From contig CAJIZI010000002.1 in the NCBI GenBank assembly GCA_905181885.1, positions 1 through 64,000 on the forward strand: 64,000 bases of DNA. Reading direction: 5' to 3'. Origin of the DNA: an uncultured Gammaproteobacteria bacterium (GTDB taxonomy: Bacteria > Pseudomonadota > Gammaproteobacteria > Nitrosococcales > Methylophagaceae). The notes below the pieces were generated by a model, which ran no database searches, was not told the origin of the DNA, and saw only the letters and a list, made by a program, of their open reading frames with translations. This document shows, one piece after another, positions 1 through 19,718 of the stretch; position 1 is the stretch's first letter, and each line of letters begins with the position of its first letter. The position numbers and the translations under genes are program-made.

Positions 1-535
1 CTTCTTTATCGGCTTCGGCATTAAATGCTCTCTCTTCCTCATCAGCAGCGGGCTTTGCATCAAGCTCATTTAAAAATGCAACTGTATCTGGATCGTCAAT
101 TAAATCACCTGCAACTTGCTTTTTATTGCTCAAAAAGCCACGTCTTGCTACAAAATGAAGTAATATTCGCCCAAATTCATGTGGATCTAACTGATGATCT
201 AACGCTTTTGTCCTTAGTTGATAAGGATCTCCTAGTTTATTGAGGATTATTTCTGGTTGCGTATTGCCTTGTAACTCACGCGGCAATAAGTTAAGTAATA
301 CAAGATAGTTCAACATTCTTTCTTTGCGCCGAGCTCGTCTTTGCACAACACGCCTACCAAGTCTCGAGTCGCGACGTTTTACATTTTTTGGAGTAGGTAC
401 TCCTGCAGCTACTGCTTTGGTGAAAATACGGCTACCTATAGCAATGATCCCATCAATATTGCCGGCAGATTCATTAAGTAGTGCCCAACCTATTGAATTG
501 CTTCCTAGATCTAACCCTAAAATTTTCTTGCTCAT
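1..535 (-). CDS. cas9: Cas9 endonuclease, N-terminal part (CRISPR type II, II-C-like; C-terminal part lies outside the window)
   Basis: Manual minus-strand translation from ATG at 533-535 gives 178 uninterrupted codons: MSKKILGLDLGSNSIGWALLNESAGNIDGIIAIGSRIFTKAVAAGVPTPKNVKRRDSRLGRRVVQRRARRKERMLNYLVLLNLLPRELQGNTQPEIILNKLGDPYQLRTKALDHQLDPHEFGRILLHFVARRGFLSNKKQVAGDLIDDPDTVAFLNELDAKPAADEEERAFNAEADKE. RuvC-I (GLDLGSNSIGWAL), Arg-rich bridge helix and LRxKAL...RRGFxSNKK motif present. RBS AGGGAG at 541-546. Confidence 0.95.
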   Translation of the reverse strand, partial: MSKKILGLDLGSNSIGWALLNESAGNIDGIIAIGSRIFTKAVAAGVPTPKNVKRRDSRLGRRVVQRRARRKERMLNYLVLLNLLPRELQGNTQPEIILNKLGDPYQLRTKALDHQLDPHEFGRILLHFVARRGFLSNKKQVAGDLIDDPDTVAFLNELDAKPAADEEERAFNAEADKE

Positions 536-563
536 AACATCTCCCTGTGTATATAATCAAGAT

Positions 564-672
564 TCTTAGTGTAACCGACTAAGGTCTATTGATTGCTTTT
601 CATACTAAGAAATTGTTTTTCGTAGGCTCCGCTTTTAAGCGAGACAGGCCCTCCGCAAGGGGGGTTTTTTAT
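564..672 (+). ncRNA. Candidate tracrRNA divergent from cas9
   Basis: Perfect TATAAT at 552-557 on +, weak TTGCTC -35 at 528-533 (18-nt spacer), internal complementarity TTCTTAGT (564-571)/ACTAAGAA (604-611), hairpin CGCTTTTAAGCG, and CCCTCC-GCAA-GGGGGG-TTTTTT terminator. No protein gene on + upstream needs that terminator. Confidence 0.6.
650..670 (+). terminator. Intrinsic terminator of the candidate tracrRNA
   Basis: ccctccgcaaggggggtttttt: 6-bp GC stem, GCAA tetraloop, U-tract. Confidence 0.7.
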
Positions 673-840: not shown

Positions 841-1260
841 TCATTTAGATAGTTTCAAACGTGAACATTGATAGTCTTTCGTCTGTTTTTCTCGATAGCC
901 TTTGCCTCTCGTTTTGGCTAGATATGATGCTCGATAAATAGCTGCTTGAGCAGTTTCTTCACTATCTACAAAATAGAATGGATTTTTAATTGTTGGAACG
1001 TGGTAGCCACCTGTTGGCCTTTCCCATGCCTGTCTGACCATGTCATTTATCCTTGATGAATGACGTATCAAACCTCCATCTAGGAACAATACCCAGTGAT
1101 AATGCTGGCCTTTACCTTTACCGTGATATTCCCTTGCCCAACAAAATCCGATTTGCTTAAACCCATACTCACGTTTTAGCTTTTGAAATAATCGCTTTCT
1201 AAATAAAGTCATTTGTTTATTGTGATTAAACTCAGTAGGAAGATGAAGGTCAAACCTCAA
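841..1260 (-). CDS. Inovirus Gp2 / YagK-YfjJ-family protein, C-terminal domain (replication-associated)
   Basis: GFCWAREYHGKGKGQHYHWVLFLDGG and following C-terminal sequence resemble the YagK/YfjJ C-terminal (inovirus Gp2) family. ORF start is TTG; the frame stays open upstream to 1569 without an ATG. Confidence 0.6.
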   Translation of the reverse strand: MRFDLHLPTEFNHNKQMTLFRKRLFQKLKREYGFKQIGFCWAREYHGKGKGQHYHWVLFLDGGLIRHSSRINDMVRQAWERPTGGYHVPTIKNPFYFVDSEETAQAAIYRASYLAKTRGKGYREKQTKDYQCSRLKLSK

Positions 1261-1586
1261 TACAAAAACCCTCTTCCATTTAATCCGAGCTATTTCAAAC
1301 TGTTCAATAATTCTTTGTAATATTCCGGTAAAAAGACCGAATTTTTCCCGACCTTTTCCATTATTTATTTGATAGGTTTTGTCATGGTGCGTAATAGAGT
1401 CTTTATCAGTTACTCGCTTCCTGTTTACAGTCCGCTTTAACTTCTTAGGCCTTGGTATTGTTTCTACATTATTAGTATCGTGGGTTACATTCGCTTCGCT
1501 ACTAGATAAAAGAAATAACCATTCATTTTCGTCACTTTCATGAATAGGTAAGTCCCAGCTGTTGAAGCCTCATCTATCCTTTCGTG

Positions 1587-1611
1587 TGTCAAAACCGCCA
1601 TGTCAAAACCG
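1587..1611 (+). repeat. Two 11-nt direct repeats TGTCAAAACCG (14-nt period)
   Basis: tgtcaaaaccg at 1587-1597 and 1601-1611. Confidence 0.6.
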
Positions 1612-1683
1612 TCCTCTGTTTCAGGGGTAGCTTTTGGCATAAGAGCACAACTTGCTATTTAACTTTGGTAATCTACTCATTGC

Positions 1684-1881
1684 TTACGCCTCCCCGTTGC
1701 GAGAAGCCGCTATTCTTTCTTCGAGCCATTGGTCAACCTCAGAGGTTAACCAGCCGCTTGAACGCTCACCCAGTTTGATAGGACTAGGAAACGTCCCTTG
1801 TCTTGCCTTACGGTAAATTGAGCCACCGCTTAAACGGGTAATAAGTTTAAGTTCTTTCAATTTTAATATTTGTTGAGTCAT
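1684..1881 (-). CDS. AlpA-family (CP4-57-like) DNA-binding regulator / excisionase-like protein
   Basis: 65 aa; LITRLSGGSIYRKARQGTFPSPIKLGERSSGWLTSEVDQWLEERIAASR is the typical AlpA wHTH. RBS ggagg upstream. Confidence 0.9.
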   Translation of the reverse strand: MTQQILKLKELKLITRLSGGSIYRKARQGTFPSPIKLGERSSGWLTSEVDQWLEERIAASRNGEA

Positions 1882-1915
1882 GTTAGTGAACCTCCAAGTT
1901 CGTTATTAACATGAC
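1877..1915. promoter_or_regulatory. 9-bp inverted repeat overlapping the alpA start codon (candidate operator)
   Basis: GTCATGTTA (1877-1885) / TAACATGAC (1907-1915). Confidence 0.4.
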
Positions 1916-2048
1916 TACTTATCATAAGCATATAAACTGAATATGAAAGCGAGTTTTTTTAATTATTTTCTTAGTAAGCCACTTTTTTTCTTATTTTCTT
2001 CGTATTTTCTCTTGCAAGCTAAGACCATTTGTTCAAAACCAAATAAAA

Positions 2049-2614
2049 TCAATACTCTATATCATCAAGATCAAGCACCTGCTGTTCAAATGCATTGAGA
2101 AAACTCTTAGAAAGAACCTTTTCTGCATGTTTTTTTGTAGTATCTGATATACGTTGTGTTGTGTCTATCGTCAAATTCATCAGGGAATATCAAATCACCT
2201 AACTGCTTATTTGTAATTTCTTTCTGCTCTACATTAGCTATAAGCTTTAAATCAATATATTGTAGTACCCCACTTTCTCACCCATTTGTCTATAGTTGCT
2301 TGATTGACATCGTTTTTAGGTGTCTGGCTTTCATGGGATAACCTATAGCAGAGAGCCACTCCTTAAAATCTGTTCTATCTGAGTATCAGTTGCGTCTAAG
2401 TCAACAGTAATATGGGCATGACTACATCAGCTCCAGCTCTACGTTCAAGTCATCAAAGGAGCCATAATATTTTGACTTGTTCATCCGTTGCCTTGCCTTT
2501 ACTCACTGCTTCATATGACTCATCAAAAGTGGCAAGTAGTCCATTGTCTACAGCGATTTGAGCAGATGCTGGCAAGACCTCAACAGACTGTGTGTCTCTG
2601 GGATAAGTTAGCAT
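2049..2614 (-). pseudogene. Decayed accessory protein gene (frameshifted remnant, function unassigned)
   Basis: Minus-strand coding-like segments in shifting frames: MLTYPRDTQSVEVLPASAQIAVDNGLLATFDESYEAVSKGKATDEQVKILWLL*, TDFKEWLSAIGYPMKARHLK, YIDLKLIANVEQKEITNKQLGDLIFPDEFDD, TTKKHAEKVLSKSFLNAFEQQVLDLDDIEY*. Confidence 0.4.
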
Positions 2615-2700
2615 CCCTTATAGGAGATAGCTCAGCCTTTAAATAAGTGGCTTCCTCTTTCTATTACAGACACCTACTTCTTTTATTATCTCTAGCAAGC

Positions 2701-4092
2701 TCAGCAGTTCTGCTCAGCTTCGCTGTCTAAGCTGTCCATGATGAATCTTTGTACATGCGTATCTATAGATAATTTCTTATACCACTCTTCCAAGCTCAAT
2801 TCTGGTAAAGAACTATAATTTTCGGGTTTAAACCAGCTTGTATCTAATTTACTCATTTTATTCCCTGCCTTGTTAATAGGGACAACGTTTCCGCCATTGG
2901 CTTGCCCATCTAGATAGTCAGCCCATGCTTGCATCATTTTCTTACGGTCTGGCAAGTATTGCGCGTAGTTGTATGCCCCTCTCACTCCATTCCTTTCAAC
3001 ATGTGCTAATTGGCGTTCTATCCAATCATAGTTGAAGCCCTGCTCATTAAGGTTTGTAGAGGCCATGCTTCTAAAGCCGTGTGCTGTCATTTCCTCTTGG
3101 GTATAACCCATCCGTCTTAGAGCGGCGTTTACGGTGTTTTCACTCATTGGTCTAGTGATTGTTCGACTGCTAGGGAAAACATACTTGTCACGGCCTGTGA
3201 GTGGCTTTATTTGCTCTAGTATCTCTACAGATTGTCTTGATAGCGGTACGATATGTACTACACGACTTTTCATCTTTTCTGCTGATATACGCCATTCAGC
3301 TTTGCTTAGATCGATCTCTGACCACTCTGCCTTTCTTAACTCTCCCGGCCTGACAAATACTAGAGGTGATAATTTTAAAGCTGAGGCTACAATACTTGTG
3401 CCTGTAAAGTCCTGTATGGCTCTCATCAATGCCCCTATTGCAACAGGATCGGTTATTGAAGCATGATGCTTTTCTTTTGTTGGTGGTAATGCTCCCTGCA
3501 AATCAGCACTAGGATCTCGTTCAGCGCGCCCAGTCGATATAGCATATTTAAACACTCGTCCACATATTGACTTGACTCTGTGAGCAGTTTCTAAATGGCC
3601 CTTGCTTTCAATACGTCTTAATATCGTAAGTACTTCGGGTGCTGTTATGTCATTGATATTCTTGTTGCCTAGCCAAGGAAAAACTTTTTGCTCTAATCTC
3701 AATATAGTTTTATCAGCATGGCTATCTGACCAGGTATTGCGAAATTTGATGTGCCATTCACGGGCGACTGTTTCAAAGCTGTCTTTATCCATTACAGATT
3801 GCTTATCAGCTTTTCTTAAATGTGATGGATCTATCCCATCAGATAATGACTGGCGAAAAATATTTCTTTTCATTCTCGCCTGTTTCAGACTTACTTCAGG
3901 GTAAGCACCCAGTGCTAATAATTTCTGTTTACCCTCGTAACGATACTTTAATCTCCACAACTTTCCTCCACTTGGAGCAACCTCAAGATACAAACCCTTT
4001 TCATCAGCCATTCGATACAGTTTGCTGGTGGCTGTACCATCAGGCTTTATCTTTGCTTTGGCGTTCTTTATTTTTACATCAGTTAATGGCAT
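2701..4092 (-). CDS. P4/CP4-57-type tyrosine recombinase (integrase with N-terminal arm-binding domain)
   Basis: MPLTDVKIKNAK...LYLEVAPSGGKLWRLKYRYEGKQKLLALGAYPEVSLKQAR plus catalytic RPGELRKAEWSEID, TAHGFRSMASTNLNEQGF and QLAHVERNGVRGAYN motifs. Starts next to the ssrA 3' end. Confidence 0.95.
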   Translation of the reverse strand: MPLTDVKIKNAKAKIKPDGTATSKLYRMADEKGLYLEVAPSGGKLWRLKYRYEGKQKLLALGAYPEVSLKQARMKRNIFRQSLSDGIDPSHLRKADKQSVMDKDSFETVAREWHIKFRNTWSDSHADKTILRLEQKVFPWLGNKNINDITAPEVLTILRRIESKGHLETAHRVKSICGRVFKYAISTGRAERDPSADLQGALPPTKEKHHASITDPVAIGALMRAIQDFTGTSIVASALKLSPLVFVRPGELRKAEWSEIDLSKAEWRISAEKMKSRVVHIVPLSRQSVEILEQIKPLTGRDKYVFPSSRTITRPMSENTVNAALRRMGYTQEEMTAHGFRSMASTNLNEQGFNYDWIERQLAHVERNGVRGAYNYAQYLPDRKKMMQAWADYLDGQANGGNVVPINKAGNKMSKLDTSWFKPENYSSLPELSLEEWYKKLSIDTHVQRFIMDSLDSEAEQNC

Positions 4093-4155
4093 TTGGTGGT
4101 AGATTCCTTTTTAGGTATCAATCTACCACCAAATCTACCACCATAATTGGTGGTA
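4091..4155. repeat. Inverted-repeat cluster at the int start (candidate arm-type or autoregulatory sites)
   Basis: Perfect 15-bp IR ATTTGGTGGTAGATT (4091-4105)/AATCTACCACCAAAT (4120-4134), followed by 8-bp IR TACCACCA (4136-4143)/TGGTGGTA (4148-4155). Confidence 0.7.
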
Positions 4156-4202
4156 TGTAAAGGAATGTTATATGACGCTATGAAACGACAGGCACAAAAA
4201 AA

Positions 4203-4219
4203 CCCATATATAATGGGCT
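4203..4219 (-). terminator. Probable ssrA terminator
   Basis: Minus strand AAGCCCATTATATATGGGTTTTTTTG. Confidence 0.6.
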
Positions 4220-4255
4220 TTTAAGTTCTTCTTGGTAGGTTGTGAAACCTATATA

Positions 4256-4613
4256 TGGTGGAGATGGCGGGACTCGAACCCGCGTCCGCAAATCCTCCGC
4301 TCTCAGCTCTACATGCTTATTTCATCTATTATTTTAACTAGAAACTACCCGATGAACAGGGAAAATAACTAGCGATCTTGAGAGGTTTCAGACCATCAGT
4401 ACCAAGCATACTTATGGCTTGTCTTATGAGAATTGACCATTGAAACCTAAACGCATAAGCACGGCTTTAGTCAATGGCTAGCAAGCCTAAGCTGCTAGTT
4501 TGTAGTTGTTATCGTTTGCAACTATATTTTGTTAATCTGTTTTACGAGAAGAATTAACATACTCGGCATGCACCTTAAGTTTTGTAACCCACGTCGAAAC
4601 CAGAGTCATCCCC
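4256..4613 (-). ncRNA. ssrA: tmRNA (transfer-messenger RNA)
   Basis: 5' GGGGATGACTCTGGTTTCGACGTGGGTTACAAAACTTAAGGTGCATGCCGAG, tag reading frame GCAAACGATAACAACTACAAACTAGCAGCTTAG (ANDNNYKLAA*, 4487-4519), 3' ...GGACGCGGGTTCGAGTCCCGCCATCTCCACCA. Confidence 0.95.
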
Positions 4614-4671
4614 AAAGTGTTGTACGATATAGACAGTATATGTCAGTGATTGTATCCAAGCCAGACATATG

Positions 4672-5154
4672 TTATTTATTTCTAAAAATTCGAGACTTTT
4701 CACGTGCCCAGTCTTTATCTTTTTCGGTCGCACGTTTATCGTGATGTTGCTTACCTTTAGCCAGTGCTATCTCAAGTTTAGCTCTACCCTTTTTCCAATA
4801 CATAGAAACCGGTACGATGGTATAACCTTTTCTATCAACAGCAGCTACCAAACGGTTGAGTTCGACCCTATTTAATAGTAGTTTACGACGACGAATGTCA
4901 TCAGGATGAATATGAGTTGATGCCGATAACATCGGTGAAATATGGCAGCCGTGTAACCAAGCCTCACCTTGGTGAAGTTGAACATAACTTTCATTCAACT
5001 GACCACGCCCGTCACGAAGGCTTTTGACCTCCCATCCTTCCAACACCAATCCTGCTTCAAAATTATCTTCTAAGAAAAAGTCATGACGCACACGACGATT
5101 TTTAGCAATATTACTGCTTGTACCTTTTTCTTTTTTACTTTTCTTTGTGGCCAT
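4672..5154 (-). CDS. smpB: SsrA-binding protein SmpB
   Basis: [40 protein letters not shown]; 160 aa; adjacent to ssrA. Confidence 0.97.
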
Positions 5155-5393
5155 AGTATCTATTATAAGTGCAAGTTGACTTGAACGCTCGGCTAATCAC
5201 TAATCTAAGTCAATTCTCTGTAGTTCTTGAACTCCTAGTGAATTTAGATCATAAAAACCATTTGTGGAGATAAAAAGATTTGGACTATATAAAATCAGTC
5301 ATTATGTTTATTATATAGCTACATCATCAAGAAATAGCAAAACTCATACGAGGCTGCTATTCCAACTTAAACCCTTAGGTAAAAAAACACAAT

Positions 5394-6755
5394 ATGGCTA
5401 GACCATTACAATCTATTCACGGTCAATGGTCGTCTCGCTGGGCTTTTGTCCTCGCAGCTACGGGTTCTGCCGTTGGGTTAGGGAATATTTGGAAGTTTCC
5501 TTATATCACTGGTGAAAATGGTGGTGGTGCATTTGTTCTAGTTTATCTTGCTTGTCTCGTCTTGATAGGTTTACCCGTAATGATGGCCGAAATTCTCGTG
5601 GGCCGACGAGGCCGTCAAAACCCAGTAAACTCTCTTCATAGTCTTGCAATAGAAGAGAAAACAACCCAAGACTGGCAATATTTAGGCTGGTTGGGCCTGA
5701 CGGCAGGCATTTTAATCATGTCCTATTACAGCGTCTTTGCCGGTCAAGCGCTTGCTTATGTTTTTAGAAACTTTTCTGGTGTATTCGAAGGGGTTACTGC
5801 TGACGGGGCTACTTCTATTTATAACGCCCTTGTTTCTGATCCTGAGCGCCTTTTAGCTTGGCATACAATCTTCGTGATCATCACATCTATAGTCGTTGCT
5901 CGCGGAGTTCAAGGAGGATTAGAAAAAGCTGTTAAATTTTTAATGCCAGCCCTCCTCGCCATCCTATTTTTATTAGTAGGTTACGCTGCAAATACCGGTA
6001 TCTATTTTCAACAAGGAATTGATTTTTTATTCCATGCTGACTTTTCAAAACTTTCTGGTGATTCAGTCCTAACGGCAATGGGTCATGCATTTTTCACACT
6101 CAGCTTAGGCATGGGCGCGATAATGGTCTATGGTTCTTATCTGCCAAAAAGTGCTTCTATCTTAAAAATGACCTTTGCTATTGCCTTCGCCGACACTGCC
6201 GTTGCCTTATTAGCTGGTATGGCTATCTTCCCACTTGTATTCGCTAATGGTTTAGACATTGATGCTGGCCCAGGTCTTATTTTTCACACACTACCCATAG
6301 CTTTTGGTCATATGCAGGGTGGCGCTTTCTTTGGTGGCTTATTCTTTTTACTCTTAGTCTTTGCAGCGTGGAGTTCCGCCATTTCTTTGATAGAACCTGC
6401 TGTAGCGTGGTTAGTTGAAAATAAGGAAGTTAGTCGACGTCGTGCTTCAGTAATAACGGGTTTAGTCACTTGGTCTCTTGGTTTATTAACTGTTTTCTCA
6501 TTTAATATTGCATCAGAATGGACTGTATTTGGTAACACCTTTTTTGATTTACTTGACTACCTCACTGCAAATATTATGTTGCCTCTCGGTGGTTTATTAA
6601 TAGCCATATTTGTAGGTAGAATAATGAGCCAAGATTCAAGTGAAAAAGAACTTAATATTAAACCCCAGTATCTTTATTCAACCTGGCGTTTTCTAATCCG
6701 ATATATTGCCCCCGCTGGCATTATTATTGTCTTTTTAAATATGTTGTGGAATTAA
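5394..6755 (+). CDS. Sodium-dependent (NSS/SNF family) transporter
   Basis: SSRWAFVLAATGSAVGLGNIWKFPYITGENGGGAFVLVYL. Confidence 0.93.
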   Translation: MARPLQSIHGQWSSRWAFVLAATGSAVGLGNIWKFPYITGENGGGAFVLVYLACLVLIGLPVMMAEILVGRRGRQNPVNSLHSLAIEEKTTQDWQYLGWLGLTAGILIMSYYSVFAGQALAYVFRNFSGVFEGVTADGATSIYNALVSDPERLLAWHTIFVIITSIVVARGVQGGLEKAVKFLMPALLAILFLLVGYAANTGIYFQQGIDFLFHADFSKLSGDSVLTAMGHAFFTLSLGMGAIMVYGSYLPKSASILKMTFAIAFADTAVALLAGMAIFPLVFANGLDIDAGPGLIFHTLPIAFGHMQGGAFFGGLFFLLLVFAAWSSAISLIEPAVAWLVENKEVSRRRASVITGLVTWSLGLLTVFSFNIASEWTVFGNTFFDLLDYLTANIMLPLGGLLIAIFVGRIMSQDSSEKELNIKPQYLYSTWRFLIRYIAPAGIIIVFLNMLWN

Positions 6756-7217: not shown

Positions 7218-7542
7218 CCACATAAATATAGAAGTCTGTTACGCTTTACCCGATGAACAACGAATATTTTCACTAGAAGTACCAGATAGTTATGATGTCG
7301 AAGAAGCCATTAAACGCTCCGGCGTCCTCGAGGCCTACCCAGAAATCTCTTTAGACACATTCAAAGTAGGTGTTTTCGGCAAAATATGTAAGCTTAATAA
7401 TAGTTTGCATGATAAAGATCGCATTGAGATCTATCGTAAGCTTATCGCAGATCCGAAAGAATCACGACGCAAGAAAGTTGAAATGGAGCGTAAAAAAGCA
7501 GCTCAAGCCAAACAAAAAGCTAATACAGAATCCAATCTCTAA
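7210..7542 (+). CDS. ratB: RnfH/RatB family protein
   Basis: MASHINIEVCYALPDEQRIFSLEVPDSYDVEEAIKRSGVL; ATG at 7210 overlaps the ratA stop. ORF track start at 7177 is probably too early. Confidence 0.85.
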   Translation: MASHINIEVCYALPDEQRIFSLEVPDSYDVEEAIKRSGVLEAYPEISLDTFKVGVFGKICKLNNSLHDKDRIEIYRKLIADPKESRRKKVEMERKKAAQAKQKANTESNL

Positions 7543-7543
7543 A

Positions 7544-8350
7544 TTATGCATGACCTTCTAACAAAGCCATCTCAGCATCTGTAAACCCGGCTTGCTTACG
7601 TGCTTCAGTATGAAAAGGCCCTCGTAACTGACCATCAAAGTAGTTATCTAATATATCTTTAAAGGTTTCAAGAGCATCAACTCCGCGTTGTTCACAAAGG
7701 TAATTAAACCAGTGTGTACCGATAGCAACGTGGCCTATTTCTTCTCGTAAAATGAGCTCTAAAATTTCAACGGCTCTTAAGTCTCCGGTTCCTCTTAGCT
7801 TCTCCATCATTTTCGGCGTTACATCTAAGCCACGAGCCTCCAGTACTCTGGGTACAAGAGCCATTCTCATCAGAGGGTCATGGTGAGTCTTTTGAGCCAT
7901 CTCCCACATACCATTATGAGCTGGGAAGCTTCCATAGTCATAGCCTAGTGAGACTAAGTGATCACGTAATAAAGTAAAATGTTGTGATTCTTCATAAGCG
8001 ACTCTCACCCAATCGGCATAATATTGCCGAGGAAGACCTGGAAAACGTGCCACAGCATCCAATGCTAAGTTAATAGCATTAAATTCAATGTGATTAACGG
8101 CATGAATCAAGGGTGCAACACCCGTAGCTGAACTATTTTTACGCTTTGGTAAGTCACGTGGTGCCACTAACTCTGGCTTGTCTGGCTGTCCCGGTATATC
8201 GGGTACAGATAGTTCGGCTTTCGAGATAGATAATGTCTCTTCTTGCCAACGCCGATAAAGCTTTTGTGTTTGCTTAACTTTATCCAAAGGATCTTTCATT
8301 AGTAGGCAAGATAGTGCTGCTTCCCTTAATCCATTATCATTTTCTGTCAT
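7544..8350 (-). CDS. DUF455 ferritin-like family protein
   Basis: HAVNHIEFNAINLALDAVARFPGLPRQYYADWVRVAYEESQHFTLLRDHL; EIGHVAIG. Confidence 0.85.
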   Translation of the reverse strand: MTENDNGLREAALSCLLMKDPLDKVKQTQKLYRRWQEETLSISKAELSVPDIPGQPDKPELVAPRDLPKRKNSSATGVAPLIHAVNHIEFNAINLALDAVARFPGLPRQYYADWVRVAYEESQHFTLLRDHLVSLGYDYGSFPAHNGMWEMAQKTHHDPLMRMALVPRVLEARGLDVTPKMMEKLRGTGDLRAVEILELILREEIGHVAIGTHWFNYLCEQRGVDALETFKDILDNYFDGQLRGPFHTEARKQAGFTDAEMALLEGHA

Positions 8351-8361
8351 AAATCCAACTA

Positions 8362-9345
8362 TTAATTATCCATGGTGACACGTGGATCAACCAAGGTATA
8401 GGAGAGGTCTGTCAATACCAAACCAACAATATATAGTACCGAACCTAGAAAAACCATCGCCCGAACAATAGCAAAATCCTGTGCTTGAATTGCATCAATG
8501 GTGTAACTTCCAAGGCCAGGAATACCAAAAAATGATTCTATAATTAAACTACCCATGAACAATGTCGGTAGTACCACGACAACTCCAGTTAAAATTGGGA
8601 TCATGGCATTTTTTAATACATGCTTGAACAACACTTGTAACTCTGAGAATCCTTTGGCTCGGGCTGTTCTAACATAGTCTTTAGAAGCCTCTTCTAGAAA
8701 TAAAGTTCTATACCAGCGTGAGCCTCCACCAATTCCTGAAATAACTCCGATCACTACAGGCAACAACACAAACTTAATCGCACTAAAACCATCGCTATAA
8801 CCTGATATAGGTACAAGCTGCATGAGCTTACCCACTAAAAATTGACCACCAATAATGTAGAATAAGCTGGAGATAGACATAATGACAACACATAGAATGA
8901 CACCGCCCAAGTCAATATAACTGGCTCTGAAAAACACCATCAATAGAGCGAAGGTAATATTGACCATCAGGCCAATGACCAAAGTTGGAACTGCTATAGC
9001 TAGACTAGGCCACATTCGTGTTTTGATATCTTGCCCAATATTTCGCCCATCATCAGCTTGGCCAAAATCAAACATAAACAAACTCAATGATTTTTCAAAA
9101 AATATCGTCTCAGTAGCTTTATCTGTAAAACTCTCAGCATCACTCTCCCACAAAAGTGCTTTATCGTAACCACGAGCTTCTTTCCAAGCATCTACTGAAA
9201 CTTGAGTTACGTGTTTAGTGCCGAGCTGCATCCTTGCCATATCATCAGGCGTATTCACCATGAAAAACAGCGCAAACGTTAAAGCATTTACACCCATCAG
9301 AATAGGAAAGGCATACAGAATTCTTCTTACAATATAAGCAAACAT
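8362..9345 (-). CDS. DppB/YejB-type ABC transporter permease
   Basis: MFAYIVRRILYAFPILMGVNALTFALFF; EASKDYVRTARAKGFSELQVLFKHVLKNAMIPILT. Confidence 0.9.
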   Translation of the reverse strand: MFAYIVRRILYAFPILMGVNALTFALFFMVNTPDDMARMQLGTKHVTQVSVDAWKEARGYDKALLWESDAESFTDKATETIFFEKSLSLFMFDFGQADDGRNIGQDIKTRMWPSLAIAVPTLVIGLMVNITFALLMVFFRASYIDLGGVILCVVIMSISSLFYIIGGQFLVGKLMQLVPISGYSDGFSAIKFVLLPVVIGVISGIGGGSRWYRTLFLEEASKDYVRTARAKGFSELQVLFKHVLKNAMIPILTGVVVVLPTLFMGSLIIESFFGIPGLGSYTIDAIQAQDFAIVRAMVFLGSVLYIVGLVLTDLSYTLVDPRVTMDN

Positions 9346-9468
9346 GGTCGTTAGTCATCTATAAGAGCAACAAAGCAATAATTATAGGCCTAACGAACTG
9401 AGTTTTGTTTAATCATTCACTGATATACACTATAATTTTTAGATGAACTCTTTTTAGAAGGTGCCTCC

Positions 9469-9819
9469 ATGGTGATGACCGCAATTGATTTAGTAAAAGA
9501 AGCAAAAAAAACAATCAACGAAGTTAGTGTAGAACAAGCGAATAGGATGATTACCAGTGGTAGTATCGTATTAGATGTTAGGGAAGTAGCTGAATTTGAA
9601 GCTGGTCATATTCCAAATACAGTCCATCTCTCCCGAGGTGTCTTAGAATTTAAAATTTGCGACCATGAAAAATTCCAAGATAGAGATGCCCCCATCCTTA
9701 TTTATTGTCGTAGTGGCGGTCGATCGGCTCTAGCTACTATTGCACTGAAGAAATTAGGGTTTACCGATGTCCATTCAATGGGCGGAGGCTACGAGCTCTG
9801 GAGTCAAACCAAGAGTTAG
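9469..9819 (+). CDS. Rhodanese-like domain protein
   Basis: VLDVREVAEFEAGHIPNTVHLSRGVLEF; IYCRSGGRSALA active-site loop. Confidence 0.93.
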   Translation: MVMTAIDLVKEAKKTINEVSVEQANRMITSGSIVLDVREVAEFEAGHIPNTVHLSRGVLEFKICDHEKFQDRDAPILIYCRSGGRSALATIALKKLGFTDVHSMGGGYELWSQTKS

Positions 9820-9899
9820 GCAATAAGTAGTCCAATTGTTTGTAACATTTGTAGAGTCCACTTGTCATAATGAATAAGTAGTTCTTTTGGAAATTAATT

Positions 9900-10751
9900 A
9901 TGGACACAATCGAATACGCAGTTTCAGGTGCTGGCTTGGGCTTACGCCGTGATTTTATGGGTGAATTAGCTGAACGTAAAGATCAACCTTTTGATTTTTT
10001 AGAAGTCGCACCAGAAAATTGGATGGAGATAGGTGGTGCATTAGGTAAAAAGTTTGCTTATTTTACCGATCGCTACCCCATGATGTGTCACGGGTTATCA
10101 CTATCTCTTGGCAGCCCTGCTCCACTTGATGAACACTTTGTCATTCGTGTCAAAAAGTTTTTAGATAAACATAATATCCGAAGCTATAGTGAACACTTAA
10201 GCTACTGTGGTGATGATGGCCATCTCTATGACTTGATGCCCATTCCATTTACAGAAGAAGCTGTCAGCTATGTAGCTGCCAGGATAAAGCGTGTTCAAGA
10301 CATATTAGAGCGCCAACTCATTATTGAAAATGCATCTTATTATGCTGCTCCTGGTCAAGAAATGACAGAAGCTAACTTTACAAATTCAGTGCTTGCAGAA
10401 GCCGATTGTGGGTTACTTCTAGACGTCAATAATATCTATGTTAATAGTATTAATCACGGTTATGACCCTGTGCAATATATGAAATCAATGCCAACAGAGC
10501 GTATTGCCTATCTCCATATTGCAGGACACTACAGTGAAGAAAATGATTTAAAAGTCGACACTCACGGTAGCGACGTTATTGACCCTGTCTGGGACTTACT
10601 TGAAAAATCTTATCAATGTCATGGAGTCATACCTACACTTCTAGAACGTGACTTTAATATTCCTTCAATTGCATGCCTAACACGCGAAGTTGATAAAATT
10701 CGTCATTATCAATTACAACAGGAACAAAGTCGCATTGCACAAACCTCCTAA
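9900..10751 (+). CDS. DUF692 / MNIO family protein (BufB/MbnB-like)
   Basis: GLGLRRDFMGEL...DFLEVAPENWMEIGG...CHGLSLSLGS...SEHLSYCG...ENASYYAAPGQEMTEANF...LLLDVNNIYVNSINHGYDP...YLHIAGHY. Confidence 0.92.
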   Translation: MDTIEYAVSGAGLGLRRDFMGELAERKDQPFDFLEVAPENWMEIGGALGKKFAYFTDRYPMMCHGLSLSLGSPAPLDEHFVIRVKKFLDKHNIRSYSEHLSYCGDDGHLYDLMPIPFTEEAVSYVAARIKRVQDILERQLIIENASYYAAPGQEMTEANFTNSVLAEADCGLLLDVNNIYVNSINHGYDPVQYMKSMPTERIAYLHIAGHYSEENDLKVDTHGSDVIDPVWDLLEKSYQCHGVIPTLLERDFNIPSIACLTREVDKIRHYQLQQEQSRIAQTS

Positions 10752-11496
10752 AATACCAAAATTTCAGCAAGTTCAATATCAGTTCTCTGCACATATTCGC
10801 GATCCAGAGAATATCGCAATGCCTGACGATATAGAACAGAGACGAATGAACATCTATACAGAATTATTTTATAACAATATTGATAACTTTTTATCTTCGG
10901 GCTTCCCTGTACTCAAAAAAATTATCTCTGAAAAGTCATGGAATGTAATGGTTCGCGACTTTATGGTGAAACACCAATCAAGATCTCCATTATTTAATGA
11001 GATGGCCTATGAGTTTTTGACTTACCTTAACAATGAGCGTGAAAGTTCTAGCGATCCAGTTTTTATCAAAGATCTCTGTCATTACGAATGGGTTGAACTT
11101 GCACTCAGTACTACTGATAGCCAAGTCTGCCCAATCAATTTTGATGACCAACAGGACTATTTAGCAATTCAAATTAAGACATCACCGCTGGCGTGGCCAC
11201 TATCCTACCCCTTTCCAGTACACCATATCTCACCTGAATTTCAACCTAGTGAGCCTAGTGAAGTGCCCATATTTTTACTCGTTTATCGAAACCTAGATGA
11301 TGAAGTCTTATTTTTAGAGCTCAACCCTATGAGCGCTAAGTTGATAGATTTACTTAATGAAGGGAAAACGGGCCAACAAGCAGCACAACAACTTGCCGAT
11401 GAATTACAGCATCCCAATCCAAAGGTTGTCATAGAGGGTGCTAGAGAGTTGATCCATGACTGGATTAAACGAAGCATTTTAATTTACCCTTCATAA
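10690..11496 (+). CDS. DUF2063 family protein (BufC-like partner of MNIO enzymes)
   Basis: FQQVQYQFSAHIRDPENIAMPDDIEQRRMNIYTELFYNNIDNFLSSGFPVLKKII; overlaps and follows the DUF692 gene. The true start may lie downstream of 10690. Confidence 0.85.
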   Translation: MIKFVIINYNRNKVALHKPPKIPKFQQVQYQFSAHIRDPENIAMPDDIEQRRMNIYTELFYNNIDNFLSSGFPVLKKIISEKSWNVMVRDFMVKHQSRSPLFNEMAYEFLTYLNNERESSSDPVFIKDLCHYEWVELALSTTDSQVCPINFDDQQDYLAIQIKTSPLAWPLSYPFPVHHISPEFQPSEPSEVPIFLLVYRNLDDEVLFLELNPMSAKLIDLLNEGKTGQQAAQQLADELQHPNPKVVIEGARELIHDWIKRSILIYPS

Positions 11497-11529
11497 AAAA
11501 TATACAAATATCAATCGCTAACAACAAAA

Positions 11530-11559
11530 AAGGCTAATGGGGAATACCCCATCAGCCTT
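11530..11559. terminator. Bidirectional intrinsic terminator
   Basis: aaggctaatggggaataccccatcagcctt between convergent genes, with A/T tracts. Confidence 0.8.
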
Positions 11560-11599
11560 CTTTCGTTTCGATGTCTTTAAGTAAATCTAGCCCAAAGTT

Positions 11600-12232
11600 T
11601 TAACCCGTCGCTAAGACAATCGCTTCTATCGATAAACGTGTAATTTCATCCCAGTCCTCTGCATCCACTAAACTAGCTGCACACATCCAAGAACCACCTA
11701 CACAAGCAACATTGGACAGGTTGTAATACTCTTTAACATTTTTCTGGCTCACTCCTCCCGTTGGGCAGAAAGAAATTTGTGGTATTGGAGCCCCGATTGA
11801 TTTGAGCATTGGTACCCCACCTGCTGCTTCAGCAGGAAAGAACTTCATTTCAGTAATACCTTTTTCAAGTAAATTCATCGCTTGGCTTGGGTTGGCAATA
11901 CCGGGTAACAATGGAACGCCAGTCGCTAAAGCTGCATCAATCATCTTATCTGTTGTGCCCGGGCTCACAATGAATTCAGCACCCGCATCAATCGCTTTAT
12001 TAAGTGTTTCTATATTGATAATAGTACCTGCACCGACAATAGCATCAGGCACTTCAGCTCTAATACGTCTAATAGATTCTAATGCTGCTGGTGTACGTAA
12101 AGTGATCTCTAATACTTTCAAGCCACCTTTTACTAACGCATGTGCTAAAGGCACAGCATGTTCAACATTATTAATTACCATTACAGGCACAATCGGCGAA
12201 ATAGCCATGATCTCTTTAATTGTTCTACTCAT
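11600..12232 (-). CDS. eda: 2-dehydro-3-deoxy-6-phosphogluconate (KDPG) aldolase
   Basis: VEHAVPLAHALVKGGLKVLEITLRTPAALESI...VGAGTIIN...KFFPAEAAGG; next to edd. Confidence 0.95.
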   Translation of the reverse strand: MSRTIKEIMAISPIVPVMVINNVEHAVPLAHALVKGGLKVLEITLRTPAALESIRRIRAEVPDAIVGAGTIINIETLNKAIDAGAEFIVSPGTTDKMIDAALATGVPLLPGIANPSQAMNLLEKGITEMKFFPAEAAGGVPMLKSIGAPIPQISFCPTGGVSQKNVKEYYNLSNVACVGGSWMCAASLVDAEDWDEITRLSIEAIVLATG

Positions 12233-12276
12233 ACTTTTCTAATTTCCTAAAAATCTAAAAATCTATTTGGCTAATA

Positions 12277-14100
12277 TTACTCAACATTAAACAAGTTAAT
12301 CGCACCTGTTTCGGCAGTAGAAACACCACGTCGGAAACTATCGAATAATTCACGGCCTGTGCCGTAATGATGTTCAGTGTTAGCCATCACACAAGCTACA
12401 CGCCCCTCTAGTTCCTTATCGTCAACGAGAACATTAAGTTCTCCAGTTTCTGCATTCAAACGGATAATATCGCCATCTCGTACTTTAGTTAGCACGCTAC
12501 CATCGGCACATTCAGGGCACATATGAATCGCAGAAGGGACTTTACCTGAGGCACCAGACATACGGCCATCAGTTACTAAAGCCACTTTAAACCCTTTATC
12601 TTGTAGAACACCCAATGGTGGCGTTAACTTATGAAGTTCTGGCATTCCGTTCGATTTGGGTCCCTGAAAGCACAATACTACAATAACGTCTTTATTCAAC
12701 TCACCACGCTTAAAAGCTTCAACAACATCATCTTGATAGTCAAAGACCATTGCAGGAGCTTCCACCACCCGATGCTTAGGATCAACAGCAGATACTTTAC
12801 TCATTCCACGACCCAAATTACCTTGCATCAAATGTAAGCCTCCACCTGCAGCGAAAGGATTTTTGACTGAGCTTATAACTTCAGGATCTAGTGTTACTAA
12901 TGGACCTTCTACCCAAACTAATTTGTCATCAACTAATTTTGGCTCTTGCGTATAAGATTTCATACCACGCTTGTCCGCTACGGCAAGAACATCTTCATGC
13001 ATAAGACCATTTTCATTCAACTCTCTGATTAAAACACTCATTCCACCCGCTGCTTGGAAATGGTTTATATCGGCATCACCATTTGGATAAACGCGTGTCA
13101 CTGAGGGTACAACTTTGGACAAGCGATCAAAATCATCCCAGTTAATGATCACACCTGCAGCACGTGCAATCGCAATTAGATGAATTGTATGATTTGTTGA
13201 GCCACCGGTAGCTAACAAACCAACCAATGCATTCATAATTGCTTTTTCGTCGATCATATGACCGATGGGTCTATAATCATCACCTTGAGCAGTAAATTTC
13301 AGTACTTGCCGTGTTGCTGCTTTAGTTAACTCATCGCGCAGCGGTGTGTACGGGTTAATGAATGATGTCCCTGGCATATGAAGACCCATCATCTCGACCA
13401 TCATCTGGTTACTATTAGCTGTACCGTAAAAAGTACATGTACCTGCACTATGATAAGACTCTGATTCTGCTTTCAACAATTCATCACGGCCGACTTTACC
13501 TTCGGCATAAAGTTGACGTATTCTTACTTTCTCTTTATTTGGTAATCCACTTGGCATTGGTCCTGCTGGCACAAAGACTGCTGGTAGATGACCAAAACTC
13601 AAGGCACCTATTAATAAGCCTGGGACAATTTTGTCACACACGCCTAAATACATAGCGGCATCGAACATGTTATGACTTAGAGCGATCGCTGTCGACATCG
13701 CAATAACATCACGACTAAATAAAGATAACTCCATGCCTGGCTGACCTTGAGTAACCCCATCGCACATGGCAGGAACACCACCGGCAAATTGGGCAACGCC
13801 ACCCGCTTTCTTGGCTGCTTCTTTAATTAACTTAGGGTAATGTTGAAATGGTTCATGCGCAGACAACATATCATTGTAAGCTGAGACAATAGCAATATTA
13901 TCTTTTTTATTACCTGTTAAATCAGCCTTTTCATCCGCGGAACAAGCGGCAAAGCCATGTGCTAAGTTACCACAAGCTAGTACACCACGATGCCTATCTT
14001 CTGTCATAGCATCATCTACACGGCTAAGATACGCCTCCCGTGTTTTTTGACTTCGCTTTATGACATCATTAGTCACAGATTTTAATACTGGATGGATCAT
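12277..14100 (-). CDS. edd: 6-phosphogluconate dehydratase
   Basis: 607 aa IlvD/Edd family; [53 protein letters not shown]. Confidence 0.95.
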
Positions 14101-14320
14101 ACTTTCACTTCTCTCTATAGATTCTTGTCAATATGCAACCGATAACAATTTTACAAATACGTTAAATTGGTAGAGCTACTATTTAGATAAACTGGACAAT
14201 TAGTATACCGCGAATAGGCCTTTTTCGCACTGTGATTCATATTCGGGTGGCGTAGCTGTTTAGAAAATAACTCTGTTTAAAACTTTGATAATCATATTGA
14301 AATAGCGACCTAAAAGTGCG

Positions 14321-15409
14321 TTAAGTTCCAGCTAAATTCATTACCCAAGAAAACAATACAACCTGAGGCACTGTCACTAATGGCAAAAACAGAGCTATTT
14401 TCCATGATCCTGTCGTCTCTTTCAGAGACATAATCTCAGTATAATCAGTTGCTACACCAGTCATTAAGAATGCGAAACCATTACCCGGGGCTTCAGCTCG
14501 TGTCACAAGATCAGCGGCTATCGGAGTCGATCCCTCGGAACAAATCTCTAAAATAGTCGCAACGATTAAAGTCATTCCTAAACCTGCCATAGTCGCACCG
14601 AAATAGGTTTGAAAACTGTCAATCGGCACAAAAGTACGAATAGTAGCTGCCAACAAGACACCTAATAACAGCCAACGGACAATCATTCGTGAGTCTTTGA
14701 TACCTTCCCATAACATTGACATCGTCCATGTTGTATCAAATGAGGTAGCTTTAAAGCGTTGCTTCGCTTCTGGCCATGCTTTAAAGCCATTCAAGTCCGC
14801 TGTGTTTGGGTTTTCTGGTAATTTTCCTGATGCCACTAAAACATTAAATATTAACCCACTAACGACACCTATAATCATTGAACAAGCAATAAACAATAAA
14901 GTCCAATACCATCCTATTAACGCAATTAAAATAACAGTGAGTGACAGAGAATTCCAAGGACTGGCAATTAAAAAGGCCATCACCTGTCCCAAACTAGCAC
15001 CCCGTTGATATAAACGCATAGCTACAAGCAATATCCCATGACTACAAAGATCCAGTAGTACACCAGCAAAAGTGGCTCGTAAAATTCCTACAAAGGTATC
15101 TCCCTTACCTAGTAGAGCTGTAACAAACTCTCGTGGAACACGACCCAGTAGGCCTACAAATAGCATACCTAATCCAAGCCCTATCCACATACTATCCATG
15201 ATGCCTCTGACTGCGGAGAACAAAACACCAACAGCTATAGGAAAACTAGTTAGCTGTTCCGTAAATAATAGATCCATCAAATAGCCAAAACTAACCAGTA
15301 CCAGAGTAGACATAAGCAAAATATCTGGACGTGATTTTTTTGTTGTTTCAGTACTACAACATCCGGGTGGCGGTTCCACCGGTTCTGGGGTTGGACAAGA
15401 TGAAGACAT
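14321..15409 (-). CDS. Permease of the DUF318/ArsP-like family
   Basis: LLDLCSHGILLVAMRLYQRGASLGQVMAFLIASPWNSLSLT; N-terminal CC motif (GCCSTE). Confidence 0.75.
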   Translation of the reverse strand: MSSSCPTPEPVEPPPGCCSTETTKKSRPDILLMSTLVLVSFGYLMDLLFTEQLTSFPIAVGVLFSAVRGIMDSMWIGLGLGMLFVGLLGRVPREFVTALLGKGDTFVGILRATFAGVLLDLCSHGILLVAMRLYQRGASLGQVMAFLIASPWNSLSLTVILIALIGWYWTLLFIACSMIIGVVSGLIFNVLVASGKLPENPNTADLNGFKAWPEAKQRFKATSFDTTWTMSMLWEGIKDSRMIVRWLLLGVLLAATIRTFVPIDSFQTYFGATMAGLGMTLIVATILEICSEGSTPIAADLVTRAEAPGNGFAFLMTGVATDYTEIMSLKETTGSWKIALFLPLVTVPQVVLFSWVMNLAGT

Positions 15410-15510
15410 ACAAAACTTTCCAATGATTTAAGGTATGATCTATCTAGTCTACTTGTCTTAGATAAAATTTAACATCTCTTCTTTAAATACTGATGATATA
15501 GCAAAATATT

Positions 15511-16194
15511 ATGCCAGAACAAAAAACACTTCGGACTATTCGCAGCTTTGTACGACGCGAAGGTCGTCTTACCCCTGGGCAGCAACGTGCAATTAATGAA
15601 CTTTGGGCCCAGTTCGCATTAGATGAGGGTGATGATTTGTTGGATTTAAATCAGTTGTTTAATCGAAAAGCACCTAAAGTTATCGAAATTGGGTTTGGCA
15701 ATGGTGCGTCCTTAGCAGAAATGGCTAAAAGTAAACCAGACACAGACTTTCTTGGTATCGAAGTACACAGGCCGGGTGTCGGCCAATTATTAAACCTTAT
15801 TGATAAGAATGGGCTCTCTAACCTTCGAGTTGCTTGCACAGATGCTGTTGAGTTACTCAAACATCGAATAGCTGACAATAGTCTAGATAGACTCCAACTT
15901 TTTTTCCCAGATCCTTGGCATAAAAAACGACATCATAAAAGGCGTATTATCCAACCTGATTTCGTCAAGCTATTAGCAAAAAAAATAAAACTCGGGGGCC
16001 ACCTTCATATGGCTACTGATTGGCAGCATTATGCCGAACAAATGCTCACAGACTTCTCTGATAATACCAATTTTAAAAACTGTGCAGATGACAAATATAT
16101 TCCCCGTCCAGATTATCGTCCTTTGACTAAGTTTGAACATAGAGGACAAAAGCTAGGTCATGGGATTTGGGATTTGTTATACAAACGTCATTAA
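15511..16194 (+). CDS. trmB: tRNA (guanine-N7-)-methyltransferase
   Basis: IRSFVRREGRLTPGQQRA...EIGFGNGASL...FFPDPWHKKRHHKRRI. Confidence 0.96.
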   Translation: MPEQKTLRTIRSFVRREGRLTPGQQRAINELWAQFALDEGDDLLDLNQLFNRKAPKVIEIGFGNGASLAEMAKSKPDTDFLGIEVHRPGVGQLLNLIDKNGLSNLRVACTDAVELLKHRIADNSLDRLQLFFPDPWHKKRHHKRRIIQPDFVKLLAKKIKLGGHLHMATDWQHYAEQMLTDFSDNTNFKNCADDKYIPRPDYRPLTKFEHRGQKLGHGIWDLLYKRH

Positions 16195-16592
16195 ATCATC
16201 TTCAGTTTAATTTCAACCTTCCAAACATTCTTCACTAACATCCGAAGCAATCATAACAAGGCACAAAGTGTTAGTAGATCTATCAATAAACTTATTCTCT
16301 GTAAAAAGTATACTACCAAGGACACAAGCCAAAGAGGCTACTCCCTGTGAGAGCATCATTGAGCAACCATAGGTTTTGCCAGGAGAAACAACTGAAATGA
16401 TCGCAAATGAATAGTATTTGGTGTAAATTGTTAATCATTAAAGTACTAGCCTGAATGTCTATCGTCCTTACTTAATAGTTCCTGTAACTAATTAAAAGAA
16501 TGATAATGGTTGTAACTTAAATGAATACTTTAACGGTAATCTTTTTTTATGTCCAAGCCTTTTACCCTAATATTTAGTCAAGAAAATCAGTT

Positions 16593-18386
16593 ATGAACAT
16601 GACCGATACTATCTCAGCAAAACAAGCTTGTACATTGTACGGCTTGTTCAAAGAACGCCTCAAGCGAAGTCCTCATATAACTGCTTATAAAAGCTATGAT
16701 CCAGAAACAAAGCAATGGTTTGATAGCACCTGGAGCGAAGTTGCTACTCGAGTGGCATGCTGGCAGGGTGCATTAATCAAGGAAGAGCTACAATCTGGTG
16801 ACCGTGTTGCCATCAATCTGCGTAACTGTATCGAGTGGGTGTTTTTTGATCAAGCAGCATTAGGTTTAGGACTCGTATTGGTGCCTTTATACCCTGATGA
16901 CCGCCCTGAGAATGTTGCCTACATATTACGTGACGCCGATGTTAAGTTGCTCCTATTGCAGAACTGTCAACAATGGAGAGCACTTGAACCGTCAATTACT
17001 GCAGAGCATGCTCTAAAGCGTGTTTTGATTCAAAATACTGATACGCCGACACTTAATAAGCCAGCTTATTATGTCGAAGAATGGCTAAATCCTGCTGATA
17101 CGAAATTGCAGAGTGATCCTGGACAACCTCACGAATTAGCCTCAATTATATATACCTCCGGCACAACTGGACGCCCCAAAGGTGTAATGCTCAGCCACCA
17201 AAATATGTTATCCGTAGCTCAAGGCGGACTGACCCGTATCAAAATAGTACCCAGTGATTTATTTTTGTCCTTTTTGCCACTTTCTCATACCCTTGAGCGA
17301 ACTGCCGGTTATTACTTACCCATGATGGCTGGAGCCACAGTAGCTCATGCACGTGGAATCCTTCAGTTAGCAGATGATATGCTAACAATTAAACCAACAG
17401 TATTAATTGCTGTCCCGCGTATTTTCGAGCGTATTTACACCCGTATCCACAGCCAACTTAAAGAAAAGTCAGGCCTTTCTCAATGGTTGTTTCACAAAAC
17501 CGTTAGAATAGGATTGCAACGTTTTGAATACCAACAAAAACGAGAAGCATGGAAGTTTAATTTTTTGGTTTGGCCATTATTGAATAAATTGGTGGCGTCC
17601 AAGGTAAGGCAACGTTTAGGAGGCAATATGCGTGTCATTCTTAGCGGTGGAGCAGCCTTGCCAAATACAGTTGCAGAGTTATTTGTTGGATTAGATTTTT
17701 GCATTTTACAAGGATATGGTTTAACAGAAACAAGTCCTGTGATTAGTGTAAATACCCCTCAAAATAATTATCCTGCTAGTGTTGGTACCGTTATTCCCGG
17801 TGTCACCGTCAAAGTCGGTGACAATCACGAATTACTCGCTCGTGGAACAGGCATCATGTTGGGTTATTGGGGTAATGAAGAGGCTACGTCACTTACTATT
17901 GATGATGAAGGCTGGCTTCATACAGGTGATCAAGCGCACATTAGTGACACAGGTCATATTTATATTACAGGTCGAATTAAAGATATTCTAGTCATGAGTA
18001 ATGGCGAAAAAGTACCACCAGGAGATATTGAAGCCGCAATATTAATGAACCCGCTTTTTGAACAAGTCCTTGTCATTGGAGAAGGACAGTCATTTCTGTC
18101 AGCTTTACTCGTACTCAATACCGATAATTGGTTTGAATTAGCCAAAAGACTTCATCTTGATAGCAATGACAAAGCTGTCTTGGACAATAAAATATTAAAC
18201 AGCTATATCATTAAGCAATTAAAAATATTACTGTCGTCCTTCCCCGCTTATGCCAAAATAAGACGCGTCTCAATACACCTCGATGTCTGGACTGCTGAGA
18301 ATGATTTAATTACACCGACAATGAAGATAAAACGCCCTAAAGTCATAGCACACCATAAAAAGGACATTGATAAAATATATCGGTAA
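16593..18386 (+). CDS. AMP-dependent long-chain acyl-CoA synthetase
   Basis: IIYTSGTTGRPKGVMLSHQNML; YGLTETSPVISVN; GWLHTGDQAHISDTGHIYITGRIKDILVMSNGEKVPP. Confidence 0.94.
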   Translation: MNMTDTISAKQACTLYGLFKERLKRSPHITAYKSYDPETKQWFDSTWSEVATRVACWQGALIKEELQSGDRVAINLRNCIEWVFFDQAALGLGLVLVPLYPDDRPENVAYILRDADVKLLLLQNCQQWRALEPSITAEHALKRVLIQNTDTPTLNKPAYYVEEWLNPADTKLQSDPGQPHELASIIYTSGTTGRPKGVMLSHQNMLSVAQGGLTRIKIVPSDLFLSFLPLSHTLERTAGYYLPMMAGATVAHARGILQLADDMLTIKPTVLIAVPRIFERIYTRIHSQLKEKSGLSQWLFHKTVRIGLQRFEYQQKREAWKFNFLVWPLLNKLVASKVRQRLGGNMRVILSGGAALPNTVAELFVGLDFCILQGYGLTETSPVISVNTPQNNYPASVGTVIPGVTVKVGDNHELLARGTGIMLGYWGNEEATSLTIDDEGWLHTGDQAHISDTGHIYITGRIKDILVMSNGEKVPPGDIEAAILMNPLFEQVLVIGEGQSFLSALLVLNTDNWFELAKRLHLDSNDKAVLDNKILNSYIIKQLKILLSSFPAYAKIRRVSIHLDVWTAENDLITPTMKIKRPKVIAHHKKDIDKIYR

Positions 18387-18455
18387 GGCTTAGTTGTTTT
18401 GACGGTCACCCATTGCTGCCAAAATAGCTTAGCTAAAAAGTGAAGTTATGATTAT

Positions 18456-19718
18456 TTAAGGTAACAAGATCACACTTGCAACAGTTTGAAATGAGCCAAA
18501 GATGACGACCCTATCTCCTTTTCTTGCATTGGCCATTGCCTCTCTATAGGCATTTGGAACACTATCAAAAGTATTGATCTTAACATCGTCAATAACCCCT
18601 TTTAATTTCAATGCTAAAGTATCAGCACTCATTCCACGACTGCCTGATAACCCCGCAATATACCAGTCGTCTATCGCAGGTTTAAGGATAGCGGAAACCG
18701 TTGACGCTTCCTTATCTTTTAACATGGCTAGGACCCCAATAGTACGGCCTTGAAAACCAGATCCTGTTAATAATTCAACTAAGCTTAAGGCGCCTTGCTC
18801 ATTATGTGTCACATCAAAAATGCGAAGTACGGCTCCAGGAACTTGTTGAAAACGACCAGCTAGTAATACTTCTATTAAACCTTTTTCTATCTGAGGCTGG
18901 GAAATGTTAAAGCCTTGCTCTATTAACAAACTAATGACTTGTAAAACAGCAGCAGCATTTTGTAGTTGATAACGGCCTGTTAATGCTGGGTGAGGTAACT
19001 TTCTCCAAGAAATAATTTCATTTGACCAATGCCATTGTTGCGAATCATATTGATAATTAAAATCAACTGTTGCTACAGAAATATGAGCACTTAACTCATT
19101 TGCATAGTTTATTAATGACTCGGGTGGTTTCTCAGCACAGACTAATGGCTTATTAGCTCTTATAATTCCTGCTTTTTCGAAACCAATGGTCTCACGATCG
19201 TGCCCTAACCATTGGATATGATCTAGGCTAATAGGTGTAATTAATGCAATATCGGCATCGAATAAGTTCACCGCATCTAAACGACCGCCCATGCCTACTT
19301 CTAAAATAGCGATATCAATCGCTTTGTTACAAAAAATATTAACAGCTGCTAATGTGGAAAACTCAAAGTAAGTGAGTGAAATGCCATCTCTCGCTTGATC
19401 AATTTCTTCAAAAGCTTCAGATATTAACCGATCATCGCAAGCCTCTCCATCAACTACAATACGTTCGTTATAATTAATTAAGTGCGGAGACGTATAAGCA
19501 CCAGTGCGATAACCTGCCGCACGTAAAATGGAATCGAGCATAGCAACAGATGAACCTTTACCATTGGTGCCGGCAACAGTAATAACTTTAAAGGGTAAAG
19601 TGGCTTTCCCTTTCAGCTGCTGCCAAACCTGCCTGACTCTTTCAAGGCCAGGATCAACTTCAGTGAAGTGGAGCTTTTCCTGCCAAGCCAGCCATTCTGG
19701 CAAGGTTTGAAATCGCAT
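18456..19718 (-). CDS. folC: Folylpolyglutamate synthase/dihydrofolate synthase
   Basis: VITVAGTNGKGSSVAMLDSILRAAGYRTGAYTSPHL. Confidence 0.95.
   Translation of the reverse strand: MRFQTLPEWLAWQEKLHFTEVDPGLERVRQVWQQLKGKATLPFKVITVAGTNGKGSSVAMLDSILRAAGYRTGAYTSPHLINYNERIVVDGEACDDRLISEAFEEIDQARDGISLTYFEFSTLAAVNIFCNKAIDIAILEVGMGGRLDAVNLFDADIALITPISLDHIQWLGHDRETIGFEKAGIIRANKPLVCAEKPPESLINYANELSAHISVATVDFNYQYDSQQWHWSNEIISWRKLPHPALTGRYQLQNAAAVLQVISLLIEQGFNISQPQIEKGLIEVLLAGRFQQVPGAVLRIFDVTHNEQGALSLVELLTGSGFQGRTIGVLAMLKDKEASTVSAILKPAIDDWYIAGLSGSRGMSADTLALKLKGVIDDVKINTFDSVPNAYREAMANARKGDRVVIFGSFQTVASVILLP

Follow-up and report, generated by a model that had tools for sequence, protein, structure and literature searches.

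A predicted tracrRNA gene divergent from cas9 in a gammaproteobacterial, probably type II-C, CRISPR–Cas9 system

Results

The window (the whole 64,000-nucleotide stretch of DNA analysed) begins at base 1 of its contig, C2, inside cas9. The N-terminal 178 codons of that gene occupy 2–535 on the minus strand (start at 535, cut by the contig start), with the frame open throughout and a match to TIGR01865 over its cut-off (1.1e-35). Divergent from cas9 and adjoining it, as is typical of type II tracrRNA genes, is a candidate tracrRNA gene at 564–670 on the plus strand, with a predicted transcript of ~107 nt that would start 7 nt past its −10 and end at a T-run. The −10 is a perfect TATAAT (552–557), separated by an 18-nt spacer from a weak −35, TTGCTC (528–533, three of six matches to consensus), which overlaps the first cas9 codons; the conserved bases at the −35 site are therefore also cas9 coding sequence. 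A probable cas9 ribosome-binding site, AGGGAG (541–546, minus strand), can be read between the two promoter elements. Within the RNA, an anti-repeat (568–604) is followed by a nexus hairpin (605–625, CUA-A-GAAA/UUUC-G-UAG), a second hairpin (630–641, CGCU-UUUA-AGCG, CGCTTTTAAGCG) and a terminator (646–670) whose stem, 646–667, runs into T665–670; nexus and terminator hairpins 3′ of the anti-repeat are likewise features of a type II tracrRNA. The original prediction had named TTGCTC, TATAAT (552–557), the hairpin and a terminator ending at about 670; all of these read directly in the sequence, and the positions it gave are correct.

Single-sequence evidence for this gene is uneven. A terminator scan gave hits on the plus strand only, with three overlapping matches against 0.3 expected from shuffles, and the free RNA fold is only moderately more stable than shuffled sequence (z −1.9). 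A consensus promoter scan did not call the tracrRNA promoter, because its −35 has only three of six matches, and shuffles yield 1.8 such sites in the region; taken alone, the promoter is no better than chance, and its support is the −10, kept as TATAAT or TATACT at the equivalent position in most relatives. Rfam has no tracrRNA family match at this locus.

The strong evidence pointing to a tracrRNA is comparative. The 11 nearest cas9 relatives (L005–L015, 68–76% identical to the window part), on contigs labelled Nitrosomonas, Pseudomonadales, Cycloclasticus, Methylococcales, Thiotrichaceae and others, all encode a homologous RNA divergent from cas9, and in L006, L009 and L013 a CRISPR array is present too. 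An RNA model built from 12 sequences (window plus 11 relatives) matches the window at 565–651 and, searched against 369 genomes of the class, recovered five further loci, each beside an array and a cas9 whose product is 43–65% identical to the L009 Cas9. A search of viral contigs and plasmids returned no close copy. Sixteen other loci, with cas9 identity falling as low as ~43%, retain the nexus, the second hairpin and the terminator. This breadth makes it most improbable that the locus is a degenerate stray CRISPR repeat with a chance promoter and terminator, a reading to which the weak −35 and the general resemblance of anti-repeats to degenerate repeats would otherwise lend something.

Cognate pairing for the proposed tracrRNA is judged on the repeats of relatives, those of the window genome being unassembled. 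Positions 568–589 are perfectly complementary to the 3′-terminal 22 nt of the CRISPR repeat in L006 (GTTGTGATTTGCAGATAGACCTTAGTCGGTTACACT) and L036; the next longest match to the relative's repeat within the 64 kb is 10 nt. Beyond these 22 bp the duplex resumes across internal loops, 594–596 pairing with GCA and 600–604 with UGUGA, giving a predicted energy of −45.7 kcal/mol compared with a shuffled mean of −18.9 (sd 3.2). The expectation that CRISPR repeats would pair within 564–603 thus holds for the repeats of related loci, with the anti-repeat placed at 568–604. As for the repeat-like sense proposed at the outset, 22 nt (ATAGACCTTAGTCGGTTACACT) are common with the real repeat, but the two diverge towards the 5′ end, since an internal loop opens the duplex at that point. 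A single anti-repeat lies outside the array in both L006 and L009; among array-bearing relatives we looked for repeats without complementarity to this RNA, or a second tracrRNA in the locus, and found neither.

Across seven different repeats, repeat and anti-repeat co-vary, as expected of a type II tracrRNA: the cognate assignment is the best of all 5,040 (total energy −301.7, against a mean of −224.3 over the full set). In L013, for instance, C-G becomes U-A and A-U becomes G-C; in L037 and L038 C-G is replaced by A-U, as is G-C in L040. The call of a tracrRNA, its extent of ~564–670 (107 nt) and its plus-strand direction are accordingly borne out on related loci, and in our view 564–670 almost certainly encodes the tracrRNA of a type II-C CRISPR–Cas9 system, a function predicted from sequence. 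The array repeats of L037 and L038 end in TACAAT, similar to the −10-like end of Neisseria repeats; crRNA transcription may thus begin within the repeats of these loci.

The hairpins 3′ of the anti-repeat retain shape while sequence varies. Nexus changes are paired across loci (GAAA/UUUC, GAGA/UCUC, GAAG/CUUC), and the stem of the second hairpin is built from other pairs in relatives (CGCU/AGCG, CAGC/GCUG, CAUCU/AGAUG, CACCG/CGGUG, GCCU/AGGC). Among the 12 nearest sequences the stems are too conserved for a formal covariation score, the different pairs occurring in distant loci. An 8-bp pairing had also been proposed, and TTCTTAGT (563–570) and ACTAAGAA (604–611) are indeed exact complements in the window; as a conserved hairpin, however, the pairing fails in all 11 near relatives, which have ACCAATGA where the window has ACTAAGAA. 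The latter overlaps the 5′ arm of the conserved nexus stem, an arm that pairs with UUUCGUAG. In that arm the window has CTAAGAAA instead of the CCAATGAAA of L005–L015, a 1-nt deletion plus one substitution, and the nexus still folds.

The interleaving of tracrRNA and cas9 promoter regions that had been noted is real as an overlap, but it belongs to a common compact layout and is no special arrangement. Promoter and start codon overlap in 12 of 17 loci, and in the window and 11 relatives the anti-repeat core begins 31–36 nt from the start of cas9. The more distant L025 and L026, of the same class (38–40% identity to the window cas9 part), also have a tracrRNA-like gene immediately beside the start of cas9; in L012, L037, L038, L039 and L040 the tracrRNA is ~60–390 nt from cas9. 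Close packing is therefore common and not required. With only ~33 nt separating the anti-repeat from the start of cas9, that gene's promoter probably lies inside or beyond the tracrRNA gene; scoring the minus strand for it in all 12 loci gave no consistent site. On the repeat-like strand of the anti-repeat is TTACACT, similar to the −10 present in other II-C repeats. A repeat-derived TACACT driving cas9 was considered and found weak, TACACT being lost in L014 though the tracrRNA is still adjacent.

A cas9 promoter so placed would give cas9 mRNA a repeat-like leader antisense to the tracrRNA. Tentatively, and we give the idea little weight, the tracrRNA could pair with this leader, or the two promoters could compete, keeping the Cas9 level matched to guide supply; the literature, covered in part, yielded no description of such a switch in II-C systems. 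The overlap with the cas9 5′ region could also indicate a regulatory RNA, either a scaRNA or a long-form tracrRNA guiding Cas9 to host genes or to the cas9 promoter, and known regulatory RNAs do lie near type II loci (PMC13431127). Such a role is very unlikely here: the anti-repeat is complete and covaries with repeats, and we saw no guide-like sequence upstream of it, the predicted start being so close (~4 nt ahead of the anti-repeat) that a natural guide would not fit.

Because the contig begins inside cas9, the window's own array is unreadable, and subtype is taken from relatives. L009 is complete, with cas9 (1034 aa), a type II-family cas1, cas2 and 12 repeats in the order cas9–cas1–cas2–array, the crRNA sense of the array running towards cas9; no csn2 or cas4 was seen among these components. 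The gene set of cas9, cas1 and cas2 only, a Cas9 of about 1000 aa, the gene order and the array direction together make L009 type II-C, the window itself having only the 5′ part of cas9. Cas9 of this subfamily resembles solved Cas9 proteins including 8jtj and 6jdq, the latter (E 1.4e-68 for the L009 Cas9) being Nme1Cas9.

Further along the window, 841–4613 (between cas9 and ssrA) encodes a replication-type protein, an AlpA regulator and a phage-type integrase (2701–4092) that adjoins the ssrA tmRNA gene (4256–4613, Rfam): the CRISPR–Cas9 locus sits on an integrative element at ssrA. L006 offers a delimited counterpart at 7464–19632, a 12-kb element with perfect 28-bp direct repeats at its borders, one at the ssrA end, carrying cas9, cas1, an 11-repeat array, a DUF4917 gene, a terminase small subunit and an integrase. 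Its cas1 (13065–13799) is seemingly shortened relative to that of L009 (244 versus 303 codons), and the genes listed for L006 include no cas2 reaching 100 aa. Together the two loci show this CRISPR–Cas subfamily travelling on integrative, satellite-like elements in at least two cases. Of 29 genomes in the genus, the window genome is the only one with a type II cas9 scoring above the cut-off, which fits a recent gain.

The truncation of cas9 by the contig end raises the question of whether this is the decayed tracrRNA of a broken locus, homologous in sequence but belonging to a system that no longer works. Searching the genome's own 1.5-Mb, 99.7% complete assembly for repeats (≤3 mismatches), Cas1, HNH_4 and full Cas9 returned the window copy only, with no cas1, remaining cas9 or repeats elsewhere, and the nexus arm is unlike that of all 11 near relatives. 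Against decay, the break falls at the contig end and not within an assembled gene, cas9 stays open for its 178 codons at 68–76% identity to relatives, and the anti-repeat and terminator are intact, as is the folding of the altered nexus. The assembly also holds the smpB–ssrA flank twice, at window 4124–6286 and at 1–2163 of contig C3 of the same genome, 98.2% identical. Contig C3 was considered as the far end of the element and rejected, its first 2163 nt being this same flank; it continues past the 2.2-kb copy into other sequence. An ssrA flank without the element suggests that the duplication is likely a branch in the assembly, some cells having the cas9-bearing insert and others lacking it. 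Decay is, on this evidence, unlikely, and an intact tracrRNA gene remains our reading.

Discussion

Cas9 needs a tracrRNA, usually encoded nearby, and as biology the finding is expected. By analogy with its family, a sigma-70-type promoter would start the ~107-nt RNA and an intrinsic terminator end it. The anti-repeat would pair with the pre-crRNA repeat through 22 bp of upper stem and, past an internal loop, a lower stem, with Cas9 binding the nexus and the hairpins beyond. Duplex processing by RNase III, or crRNA synthesis from promoters in repeats, might then give the mature dual guide and DNA cleavage. What the window supplies is the anti-repeat, and hence most of the expected repeat, for a compact Cas9 subfamily (~1030 aa in relatives) spread over gammaproteobacterial and other MAGs; with consistent cognate repeat/tracrRNA pairs, guides could be designed.

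The closest counterparts are the Cas9 loci of Nitrosomonas, Cycloclasticus, Pseudomonadales and Thiotrichaceae MAGs (L005–L015), which have the same cas9 subfamily and tracrRNA, mostly at the same distance. Among established systems, the layout of the Neisseria meningitidis type II-C locus is the basis for a wider likeness: it shares with L009 the cas9–cas1–cas2–array order, a GTTGT repeat start and an array directed towards cas9, its tracrRNA is upstream of cas9 as here, and its Cas9 is a sequence relative. The repeat and anti-repeat sequences differ, however, and the Cas9 is only distantly similar. The Neisseria locus, too, sits on a mobile element (PMC13431127). EH CRISPR–Cas9, from the El Hondo metagenome, is a type II-C system whose EHCas9 was shown to be active, and its ~100-bp tracrRNA gene is upstream of cas9 with its own promoter, an anti-repeat and a rho-independent terminator (PMC10281378); likened by layout, it follows the same plan as the window tracrRNA with a different Cas9. 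The window tracrRNA is thus of the ordinary, Neisseria-like type II-C kind, built to an already known plan.
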